Below are positions 36,967 through 60,998 of a DNA stretch of 64,000 nucleotides, piece after piece (the first letter of the stretch is position 1; each line of letters opens with the position of its first letter). The notes beneath the pieces are model-generated. The model had not been told where the DNA came from and did no database searches. It worked only from the letters and a program-made list of their open reading frames with translations. Position numbers and translations under genes: made by a program. Origin of the DNA: Watersipora subatra (Eukaryota > Bryozoa > Gymnolaemata > Cheilostomatida > Watersiporidae); the NCBI RefSeq assembly GCF_963576615.1, contig NC_088708.1:27535191-27599190 (forward strand), read 5' to 3'.

Positions 36967-37297
36967 TGTAGTGGAATCTAACCAGGCCCTAACACCGAGC
37001 GTTTTAGCTAGAAGGTCACGAAGTAGTGGCATGCCTTATAAGCTGAGTAATTGCTAATAACTAGTTAAGCTAACAGAATCAAGGCCAGGACGATCCTAGC
37101 TGTTAAGTACCAAGAGTCATGTACCGGACCACCAGTACCGGAGTCATGTTGGCAAAACCAACTGAGATTAAAGGAGGCACAGCCAAGTAAAAGAAGTAGC
37201 ATATACATATAAGGAGGCCAAATGAGACAAAAAAGTCAGAGATCATTCGCAGTTTCTTACATGCTGTTCTTTGTAATGTGCACACATTGAAACATGC
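36967..37297 (+). repeat. 5' LTR fragment
   Basis: Aligns with 41689 to about 42043 of the 3' LTR and then runs into the (TA)n tract at 37301, beyond which the LTR sequence is not seen again. Confidence 0.75.
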
Positions 37298-37300
37298 ATA

Positions 37301-37377
<77 letters not shown>

Positions 37378-37410
37378 TGTGTATATATATGTATATAGGT
37401 ATATATATAC
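37301..37410. repeat. (TA)n microsatellite
   Basis: About 37 uninterrupted TA units to 37377, then interrupted TATG/TATA sequence. It separates the 5' LTR from the LINE fragment. Confidence 0.9.
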
Positions 37411-37414
37411 AAAC

Positions 37415-39345
37415 TGGAAGAGCACATGAGTCACTATATGACCAGTGCTCAGAAAGGAATTGGGCACAACACCTGAGGAGCCAAACATCAGTTACTGGTG
37501 GATCGGACGGTCTGTTAAGACGGCAGGAGAGGGCACACCAATCTTGCCATGGCTTGAATCGACTACAAAAAGGCCTATGACTCAATTCTCTATAGTTGGA
37601 TACTTGAGTGCCTCAGTATGTACAATGTTCACCCTACTCTTGTGGCATTCATCAAAATATCAATGACCAAATGGAAGACGGAACTGGAGGCTAATGGCAA
37701 AAAGCTGGCGAGTGTAAAAATTAAGCGAGGCATCTATCAAGGTGACTCCTTATCACCGCTGCTCTTCTGCATATGCCTAAACCCTCTAAGCAATATGCTG
37801 GAGAAGGCTCAATATGGGTACCAGTTTAAGAGTGGCACCAAGATAAACCACCTCTTCTACATGGATGACATCAAGCTGTACGCTAACAAAGAAGGGAACA
37901 TTGATTCGCTAATACACCTCACTCAGGTATACAGCAAGGACATTGGAATGACCTTCGGTATTGAGAAATGTGGAAGGCTAATTCTTAAGAAAGACCACTC
38001 TATGCTTACAGATGGCCTAAGAATGCCAAATGGTACCATCAAAGATATAGAAGAAGGGTACACGTACTTGAGGATTATGCAAAGCAACATCAACCACGAA
38101 GCCGAAGTACGTCACAAAGCCATTACTGAATACAAGAAACGCCTTCGGCAGGTCCTATGGAGCCAGCTCAATGCCAAGAACCAAGTCATGGCAATAAATA
38201 CCTACGCACTGCCAGTAATAATATATCCAGCAGGCATAATAAAGTGGACTGAGGAAGCCATCAAGGAAACAGATATAGCAACTCGTAAACTGCTGACCAT
38301 GCATAGAGCTCTCCACCCAAAATCTGATACTACTAGATTGTATCTCGATAGGAAAGATGGCGGTAGGGACTCAAAAGTGTACAGCAGACAGTGAAAGCGG
38401 AAGAGCAAAGCATCAAAGCCTATGCAGCCTCCATGGCCACTTCAGATAAGTTGCTAGCTGAATTTCAATCGGCTGCTCTTACAGTGGACCTTCGCCCTGA
38501 TGATGAGGAAATTGACTGGCACATGAAACCTCTTCATGGTGCTTACCACCGACAAATATCTAAGGTTGGCGATTTTCGCCAGACATATATGTGGCTGAAC
38601 AAAAGAAACCTAACGGCCAATACAGAGTCGCTAATCATGGCAGCCCAGGAGCTAGTGCTCCCAACAAGGCAACTCCAGACAAAATCTATCACACTAGAGA
38701 CGATCTTAGATGCAGACTGTGCAAAGATGCACCTGAGACCATCCAACACATCATCAGTGGATGCAAGCAGCTAGCAGGAAACGCATACACTGAGCGGCAT
38801 AATCATGTCGCAGGTGTTGTGTATAGAAGTCTATGTGACGAGTATGGCCTTAATAAACCACAACACTGGTGGGAAGCTCCTGGTAAGGTCAATGAAAATG
38901 ACCGCACTAAGATCCTCTGGGACTTCTACATCCGGACTGACAAGCATGTCCTAGCAAACCAACCAGATATAGTGGTGGTGGACAAGGAGAACTAGAGGGC
39001 TACTATAATCGATATAGCAGTACCCAATGACTACAATATAGCCAGCAAAGAAAAAGAAAAGGTAGAAAAATATCTCCCTCTTGGAGAAGAGATTGAAAAA
39101 TGCTGGGATGTAAGAACAACTGTAATCCCAGTAGTTATTGGGGCACTGGGTGCAATAACACCAGCACATAAAATGTGGCTGGACCAGATACCAACAGCAA
39201 TCAACTCAGGTGAGTTGCAGAAAAGTGCGCTATTGGGAACAGCTAAGATCTTGAGGCGAGTGCTCAAACTCCCAGGTCTCTGGTAGGAGACCCGAGTTAG
39301 AGCAGAAACTACCACCCATACGGGTTAACCGGGGTGAGGAAACAA
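37415..39345 (+). pseudogene. Broken non-LTR retrotransposon with restriction-like endonuclease
   Basis: A 5'-truncated LINE. The reverse-transcriptase region (about 37540-38394) has the palm motifs DYKKAYDS, QGDSLSPLLFC and YMDD. A cysteine-histidine motif follows (C-R-L-C, then H and C, about 38715-38765). After it comes the PD...D/IDIAVP motif (about 38960-39030) of the restriction-like endonuclease found in R2, R4 and NeSL-type elements. Damage: a TGA at 37555-37557 where the family has tryptophan, a frame change near 38390, another between about 38590 and 38770, and a TAG at 38994-38996. AT-rich simple sequence flanks both ends. Clade assignment (R4-like) is inference. Confidence 0.85.
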
Positions 39346-39399
39346 TTTTTTTTATATATACATATATATAAATATAATATATTTATACATGGATATATA

Positions 39400-39700
39400 C
39401 ATGTATGAAGGATTATCATATTGTTTGAAAAAGTGCTCAATAGTAAAACTAGAGCTGACTAAAATCAAATTTGAGTAAAAGTTACCAAAATTGTTGAAGC
39501 ATTTTACTACTAAATAGTTTCGTGCATAGCAAGTGCACTCTTCAGGTAAAATGACCAAAGGTTGGTAAAATGTATAAACGCAAGCTAAGAAATTATAGGT
39601 TTAAAATAAATAGGATTAAAAGACACTATAAACAAATGTTGTATGGTAACAGAATTCATGTAATGTAACCCAGTCTGTGCTTTCGTGCATGTATACATGT
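39400..39700 (-). repeat. Hammerhead-bearing retroelement remnant
   Basis: About 300 bp with no frame, holding the hammerhead at 39500-39553. In animals such type I hammerheads with a tiny stem III are typical of Penelope-like elements and of small non-coding retrozymes. No Penelope reverse transcriptase or GIY-YIG endonuclease is visible nearby, so this would be a solitary fragment. Confidence 0.5.
39500..39553 (-). ncRNA. Type I hammerhead ribozyme
   Basis: Read on the minus strand from 39553, all parts are present in order. Stem I: CATTTTAC (39553-39546) pairs perfectly with GTAAAATG (39507-39500). Core CTGAAGA at 39545-39539. Stem II: GTGCA/TGCAC with loop CTTGCTA (39538-39522), starting with the conserved G-C pair. 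Core GAAA at 39521-39518. A very short stem III (A-C-T with A-G-T and loop ATTT) ends at 39509. The predicted cut is after A39508, in the sequence GTA. Outside stem I, GGTAA (39482-39486) can pair with TTACC near 39564-39568 to close an internal loop. All invariant core residues fit the consensus, with A at the one free position of CUGANGA. Confidence 0.88.
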
Positions 39701-39709
39701 CGATATTAT

Positions 39710-40630
39710 TTCAGGCTCAACCTGTTTGACAGACAATTCCTTTTGCGCACGAACCATGCCTTTCTACAGTGGTTATGTTGAAAAAAGGAGCCTTCCAACC
39801 AGATAGCCAAATGGCAGAAAATCCTGGTCGAGTTTGGGTATACGCTAAGGCACAAAGCCGGTCTCAGCACAAGAACGCTGAGGAGCTCAGCCAGCAGACC
39901 TGTGAAGACTGTCAGCAATTCGTGTCTGTGACTAACAGATAGCTTGCCATGAGAGACCAGAGATCGCTGTAAAGACTCATGGGTAGCCCGTTCACTGTGC
40001 CAAAGGTCACCAGTATCGCCAAGACTCGTTCCATGGCAGCTGGGAGAGTCAGCCTAGGATCAACTGAGATCACCCTGGGATACTGTGGCACGGCTTGGTG
40101 AAGGCTTGGGGAAATGCCAAAGTGAAAGCTGACTCAGATGCAAGGCGCTGGCCAAGGAACTGGTGGCTGCTATGTACCACGCGGTTGAATGAGCTGGGAA
40201 GCTGACTCAGTAGCAGTTGAAATTAAGAGGTTAAGAACTCCGACAGCTGCATAAAATTTGTCTGTTCCTGGTGAATGGTAGCCGTGTACCTGGTGGAGTC
40301 GATGCCGGAAACTCCAAGAGAAAACAAGTGGATTGTGGTACTCACAGACCAATTTGTGAAGTGGCAGAATGCCTTAGCCCTTGCGGAGGCCATGGCTACG
40401 GTGGTGGCGAGGGCATTGGATGAATGGGTGTTTTGCTACATGGGTTCACCAGAGCAGATATACATTGAAAAGAGGCAAAGTTTGAGAGTCAACTATTGAC
40501 TTATCTGTGTTGGCTCTGGCGGGCGAAAAAAACTCCCACCACATCCTCCCACCTCCAAGCCAGTGGTGTTGTTGAACGAAACAACAGACAGCTGGGCGAT
40601 TCTTTGCGAGCATTACTGCTGATTTGAGGT
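39710..40630 (+). pseudogene. Gypsy-type RNase H and integrase remnants
   Basis: At about 39735-39900 frames read RTNHAFLQWL and then, after a shift, IAKWQKILVEFGYTLRHKAG, the end of a Ty3/gypsy RNase H domain. At 40275-40480 ESMPETPRENKWIVVLTDQF and GSPEQIY match the integrase core. At about 40530-40620 GVVERNNRQLGDSLRALL follows in another frame. Stops and shifts separate the pieces. The stretch 40630-41680 probably includes the integrase C-terminal region but holds no frame I can identify. Confidence 0.75.
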
Positions 40631-41688: not shown

Positions 41689-42149
41689 TGTAGTTGCATC
41701 CAGCCAGGCACTAACACCGAGCGCTCTAGTTGAAAGGCTACGAAGTAGTGGCATGCCTTATAAGCTGAGCAATCGCGTAATAGTCAGCTCAGCTACCTGA
41801 ATCAAGTCGGCAAGGCCATCCCAGCTGTTACGTACAAAGAACTCGGCTCGGCTAAATCAGTCAGATTATGACTTATATATCGGAGCCAAGTCATGTAGGC
41901 AAGACCAACTAAGAGTAAAGGAGGCAGAGCCAAACAAAAGAAGAAACGTATATAGAGGCCAGATGAGCCAAAAGAGTAAAAAATCGCTGGCAGTCTCTTA
42001 CATGCTGTTCTTTGTAATGTGCAAGCATTGAATACATGTATTTATATATTTATGCAAAATATATATCTATCTTATGGCCTTAACACTCGGTGTGTTTGTT
42101 TGACTTATCGGTTTTGTGGAAAGTAAAGGGCCGGGCAGAGTCCTTTACA
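41689..42149 (+). repeat. 3' LTR of the gypsy-type element
   Basis: Begins TGTAGTTGCATC after a purine-rich tract and ends CTTTACA, followed by ATAT. It is colinear with 36967-37297 over its first part. Confidence 0.75.

Positions 42150-43129: not shown

Positions 43130-60998
<17,869 letters not shown>

Follow-up and report, generated by a model that had tools for sequence, protein, structure and literature searches.

The window, meaning here the whole 64-kb stretch of DNA that was analysed, carries a real, intact type I hammerhead ribozyme motif on its minus strand. The best explanation, and a very probable one, is that the motif lies in a relic of a Penelope-type element (PLE). A PLE hammerhead of this sort is ordinary in kind; the part deserving specialist attention is the pattern of junctions in sister families of the same genome. 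The 5' ends of the mini-copies of these families are of two kinds, some lying about 17 nt before the ribozyme core and others at the cleavage site. The simplest reading is that ribozyme-cut RNA may have served as a template in vivo. If this is true, the genome would give evidence both of ribozyme action in vivo and of cut RNA as a usable template, and it would supply families for testing ribozyme-made templates.

The hammerhead motif in the window

The motif was located by direct reading, a descriptor scan and an Rfam alignment. The features around it are as follows.

37404..39345, plus strand: R2-like LINE fragment (RT, broken frames; RVT_1 3.6e-17, R2 retrotransposon protein 3.7e-17), a neighbour outside the ribozyme element, with limits estimated by eye
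39346..39404, no strand: AT-rich microsatellite adjoining the tail, target-like (compare the (TA)n flanks of the fetched mini-copies)
39405..39459, minus strand: 55-nt tail, which relatives carry on just one of their two repeats
39460..39712, minus strand: pseudo-LTR unit (ORF end, 3' UTR, hammerhead), the part common to both inverted copies in relatives
39500..39553, minus strand: type I hammerhead ribozyme motif
39656..39712, minus strand: last 18 codons and stop of a Penelope-like ORF (EIISTCIHARKHRLGYIT-stop), from the translation and the ORF ends of relatives

Read along the minus strand, the motif consists of the stem I 5' strand CATTTTAC (39553-39546, 8 bp), the core CTGAAGA (39545-39539), the 5-bp stem II GTGCA/TGCAC with the loop CTTGCTA (39538-39522), the core GAAA (39521-39518), CTATTTAG (39517-39510), UA (39509-39508), and the stem I 3' strand GTAAAATG (39507-39500). 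The CUGANGA and GAAA cores, three helices with helix I open, and an NUH triplet of a type I hammerhead are all present. If A15.1-U16.1 is counted, as many as four pairs enclose UU in stem III, and the predicted GUA^ cleavage bond lies between 39508 and 39507. The preliminary description had claimed a hammerhead at these bases, with an 8-bp stem I, a 5-bp stem II and cleavage at A39508/G39507; all core letters proved intact, both stems were read directly, and the predicted bond agrees. When folded freely, the motif forms stems I and II, but helix III is replaced by pairing of CUGAA with UUUAG. The folding energy of the 291-nt minus strand was unremarkable (z -0.89).

The covariance check gave a mixed result. 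A scan of 171 bases matched Hammerhead_1 (RF00163) at 23.6 bits and an E-value of 0.0008, with all 45 model positions aligned. This score misses the gathering score of 34 bits, which is a curation threshold and not a biochemical definition. Nothing in the whole window reached a gathering score, and a 2-kb scan at E<=1 returned two microRNA models and no hammerhead, which was probably filtered out. Rfam over the whole genome gave 0 matches, but so did the 14 controls, so this result carries no information; a pattern scan of IMG/VR also gave 0. The preliminary description had named the lack of an Rfam match above threshold as evidence against the hammerhead; at the gathering score such a match is indeed lacking, and the other evidence overrides this.

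A strict descriptor scan of the 64-kb window returned the motif as its single match. No credible second hammerhead was found within 2 kb by a scan tolerating two core mismatches. The sole other match there, at 38249 on the plus strand, is without helix III and lies inside the LINE coding sequence. The nearby TGCACGAAA (39681-39689, minus strand) was also rejected as a second copy, since it is part of the ORF end and has no hammerhead around it.

The window copy and its genomic relatives

The window copy represents the 3' portion of an element truncated at its 5' side. By comparison with the fetched loci, it spans 39712 to about 39405, and it comprises, in order, the ORF end, the pseudo-LTR with the hammerhead, and the 55-nt tail, next to which lies the AT-rich microsatellite. 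The 5' truncation was placed at 39712, where the alignment to most fetched relatives stops. The pseudo-LTR boundary was defined by eight distinct loci with a second copy, in which the shorter copy ends at 39459-39464. The window copy keeps only one repeat and is presumably inert. Its hammerhead starts 102 nt after the ORF stop. The C-terminus EIISTCIHARKHRLGYIT-stop has the counterpart EMISTCRNARRHRLGHIT in L016. The preliminary description had placed no Penelope coding sequence beside the motif; this is wrong, because the last 18 codons of the ORF lie just upstream, encoded on the minus strand at 39712-39656.

Relatives of the copy are abundant in the genome assembly (783.7 Mb). The 291-nt segment around the motif has at least 45 scored matches, including the window itself; this number is a lower bound because scoring covered 40 of the 104 candidates, and in some cases one element contributed both of its arms as separate matches. 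Apart from the window itself, the 44 matches have 83-94% identity to the window segment. The pattern CTGANGAGTGC...GCACGAAA occurs at 965 genomic places, compared with 0 for the controls. Among the first 100 of these places, 26 of the 27 neighbouring pairs within 6 kb are oriented head to head and one is direct; of the head-to-head pairs, 16 have gaps of 21-123 bases and 10 have gaps of 865-4086 bases. Across the genome there are 197 short head-to-head pairs, compared with 2 for a reversed-pattern control. One direct-orientation pair of the window's family was found among the scored matches (C2:52198246 and C2:52198364). Since the relatives are mostly inverted pairs, the proposed search for 200-400-bp tandems carrying the motif would miss them.

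The relatives have the organization of a PLE: the pseudo-LTRs contain the hammerhead and are often in head-to-head inverted orientation, and one end carries a short tail. The two repeats of an element are unequal, as the tail is on one side only. Homologous ORF pieces adjoin the repeat in L010, L016, L011, L035, L032, and L014. A PLE has a single ORF with a Penelope-type RT and a GIY-YIG endonuclease, and these pieces are assigned to such a putative protein by motif (FDVVEFYPSI, YIG, RxxH). Sequence searches of Pfam, PHROGs, and PDB gave no significant match for RT or GIY-YIG domains in the pieces; the AlphaFold model of the endonuclease part was poor (pLDDT 43.6), and a fold search with it returned no significant matches. 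The putative PLE coding identity therefore relies on the motifs. The preliminary description had taken the motif for a solitary relic, either of a Penelope-like element or of an animal retrozyme; the relic and the Penelope-like element are retained, and the retrozyme is not.

Several other features were observed around these repeats. The tail may lie next to either end of the ORF (C2:474307-476440 in L014, versus C1:79238579 in L016 and L069), as if the interior were inverted between the repeats. The 3' end of the R2-like LINE (39184-39406 in the window) abuts or nears PLE repeats, usually via a (TA)n stretch; the same was seen at repeats of three families in L017, L029, L049, L068, L070, and L083 (families A, B, and C, defined below). 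The R2-like LINE and the PLE repeats may share a target preference. Direct repeats at 36967-37325 and 41689-42070, which are 73% identical, flank the nested elements and may be the LTRs of a gypsy-type element. Beyond 39712 lies a putative gypsy-type RNase H remnant, recognized by eye from its motif. Minisatellites of 28 bp occupy 47147-47879 (26 copies) and 57865-59539 (59 copies).

The ribozyme across repeat families

At least four repeat families share the core but have different stems: family A, which is that of the window, and families B, C, and D. Seven representatives were typed. Pairing is kept at all 12 pairs wherever neither letter is missing, and 9 of the 12 are changed on both sides; these representatives were chosen as pairing motifs, and one (E) is a retrozyme-like hammerhead. 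A fetch pattern without a stem I requirement is free of this preselection, so the stronger statement is that stem I has at least 4 bp in 23 of the 30 loci L039-L068, among which some were fetched twice or are two members of one pair, and one is the window. The strands of helix III are perfect or near palindromes (CTATTTAG, CAGACCTG, CAAATTTG, and CTTTAAG). In the available parts of two papers, a dimer mode is reported for hammerheads with a weak helix III (PMC7229834, PMC6155905), and the near-palindromic strands would suit such a mode.

Within family A, the ribozyme is no better conserved than its flanks (0.934 vs 0.931-0.952), as expected for decaying copies. An intact motif is found in 4 of 36 aligned family A copies, including the window copy, and the per-column majority sequence of the family is an intact hammerhead. 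Over 253 positions, the window copy departs from the family majority at 3.6%, compared with 5.6% for the median copy. At two loci of family B, the ORF terminates at the UGA within the ribozyme's CUGA core (L044 1501-1504, L013 1911-1908); thus translation would end inside the ribozyme.

Alternative origins of the motif

Other origins of the motif were weighed against a PLE hammerhead. The probability of a chance match is negligible. An order-1 Markov sequence of 43 Mb contained no match as strong, and an order-3 Markov sequence of 360 Mb contained one, which corresponds to 1.8e-4 per 64 kb; extrapolated from the latter rate, about two such motifs are expected by chance in the 784-Mb genome. 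However, the motif belongs to a multi-copy family, and sister families carry different paired stems. The genomic matches, the places of the core pattern, and the intact family majority, taken together, refute a chance origin. Descent from a non-autonomous animal retrozyme, with short direct tandems and a small circular RNA, is highly unlikely. The helix III is small-looped, as described for invertebrate retrozymes, the segment is AT-rich and solitary, and retrozyme-like tandems do exist in the same genome; however, no direct tandem partner of the segment occurs in the window, and some of its inverted relatives have coding sequence in between. Animal retrozymes are short direct tandems, each with a hammerhead and no ORF, which is not the arrangement found here. 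This origin was rejected on the retained end of a protein-coding ORF, the inverted relatives, and the different hammerhead of the tandems.

The motif might also be a structural palindrome in the terminal inverted repeats of a DNA transposon or a PLE, without a catalytic role, which is improbable. Paired copies are nearly always inverted head to head, and the family A ribozyme is not conserved above its flanks, both of which would fit such a palindrome. It would not account for the letters of the catalytic core being kept across families with different stems, or for junctions clustering at the predicted cleavage bond. The unequal repeats, with a tail on one side only, and the resemblance of the ORF pieces to PLE proteins by motif also argue against it.

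Junction positions of the mini-copies

Junctions between the two arms of the mini-copies were mapped relative to the ribozyme. Family C has 85 places whose junctions lie upstream of the ribozyme, and a search with the same arms found 23 places with shorter gaps (control 0 in both cases), which suggests that most junction copies come from uncut templates. Of the 85 places, 50 were listed: in 35 of these the furthest arm reaches at least 17 nt upstream of CTGA, and in the other 15 it ends 8-14 nt upstream; the upstream reference stopped at 18, and by eye the bases farther out vary from locus to locus.

The second set of 5' ends lies at the cleavage site. In family B, 8 of 11 loci have the furthest arm ending precisely on the base that follows the cut (control 0), in a search able to detect symmetric ends between about 17 nt downstream and 12 nt upstream; the remaining three loci end 3 nt downstream, and 12 and 17 nt upstream. 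In the family C set of 30 loci, 21 end 0-3 nt upstream of the cut, seven of these exactly, while seven end further upstream and two downstream (control 0). The last family C search reached 29 nt downstream of the cut, and only 1-2 nt upstream for symmetric ends. Among its 15 loci, the furthest arm lies at 0-3 nt in 13 and at 21 and 26 nt downstream in the other two; nine of the 15 loci are common to the 30-locus set, and the controls gave 0. The nearer arm could be seen in 13 loci, at positions between 26 nt downstream and 2 nt upstream; the value of -21 for C5:29052284 reflects a 1-nt indel, the earlier measurement being -5.

Against a uniform null, which is crude, binomial probabilities are 2e-10 for family B, 2e-12 for family C, and 2e-10 for the last search. 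Overlap of the arms leaves many junction ends uncertain by 1-4 nt, and some loci share junctions (C6:11362639 with C6:15467856, which also share a flank, and C7:59325386 with C7:59399340). The tail was seen by eye on one side in 15 of 16 fetched junction loci, which are flanked by AT-rich repeats. The same type of junction search in family A found 0 junctions of the cleavage-site kind.

A possible mechanism and its alternatives

In a live element, transcription would pass from the ORF across the pseudo-LTR. The hammerhead might fold alone, as a dimer via the near-palindromic helix III, or with the aid of the element's protein, and once folded it would cut 5' of G39507. Reverse transcription would begin at the tail, and the first cDNA strand would reach the 5' end of the available RNA. 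Two classes of template are proposed: uncut RNA, which would start roughly 15-18 nt before the ribozyme core, and ribozyme-cut RNA, with the cleavage site as its 5' end. The second arm would be joined at a variable point. It seems rather likely that Penelope hammerheads cut RNA in vivo before or during reverse transcription and that the 3' product is inserted, so that the junctions of the two classes of mini-elements would be a readout of ribozyme activity over evolutionary time.

The cleavage-site junctions could instead be due to deletion of a palindrome at the DNA level, or to the RT stopping or jumping at the folded hammerhead, an account judged somewhat unlikely but worth serious weight. 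Long palindromes are deletion-prone, the overlap at many junctions blurs their ends, and a few family C junctions join the leader (TTTTAGTA) to ACGC, like a jump over the ribozyme at GTA. However, palindrome deletion offers no evident reason for one arm to lie at the bond in 13 of 15 loci while the other varies. A stalled polymerase is unlikely since it should halt before the 3' strand of stem I, and the furthest arm ends just past it. The use of cut RNA as template is the simplest account of these junctions.

Comparison with known elements

A 2014 paper by Cervera and de la Pena reportedly described hammerheads of Penelope-like elements. No report of cleavage-site junctions was found by titles and the starts of abstracts; an earlier report is possible, as that paper, a 2017 paper on the dimer, and the Terminon paper were outside the search.

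According to the sections available of PMC11167929, the PLE hammerheads of PAc from Anolis likewise have a type I core in a pseudo-LTR, a tail, and AT-rich targets. The ORF of PAc starts inside the hammerhead, whereas in family A the hammerhead lies 102 nt past the ORF stop, and in the two family B loci CUGA supplies the stop codon. The same sections report no RNA-seq reads of PAc starting or ending at the cleavage site; in contrast, such ends are found here as genomic junctions. In the anole element, cleavage needed the element's protein and was dispensable for insertion in vitro. The majority of putative uncut templates here agrees with PAc, and the cut minority adds to that picture. Hammerheads of PLEs are usually without helix III, as described in the available portions of PMC6155905 and PMC7761336; unlike these, the helix III here has 3-4 pairs with a near-palindromic strand.

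The Penelope elements of the rotifer Adineta vaga have head-to-head inverted pseudo-LTRs, an optional short tail, and palindromic junctions with microhomology (PMC3846280, in its available text). The relatives here share this layout, and the AT-rich flanks as well. A word search of the available text found no mention of a hammerhead, whereas the junction positions here relate to the ribozyme.

Animal non-LTR retrozymes, as presented in the available parts of PMC7229834, have a type I hammerhead and AT-rich sequence in common with the window copy, and tandems similar to theirs occur in this genome. They differ in being direct tandems of a few hundred bp and non-autonomous, and the retrozyme-like hammerhead of this genome differs from that of the window. 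This retrozyme-like hammerhead, CTGATGAGGCTNCAATAGCCGAAACAG, has 613 + 619 = 1,232 genomic matches and was seen at L021 1090 and 1350. In many of the 100 matches listed, the copies are spaced by ~259 bp in direct orientation.
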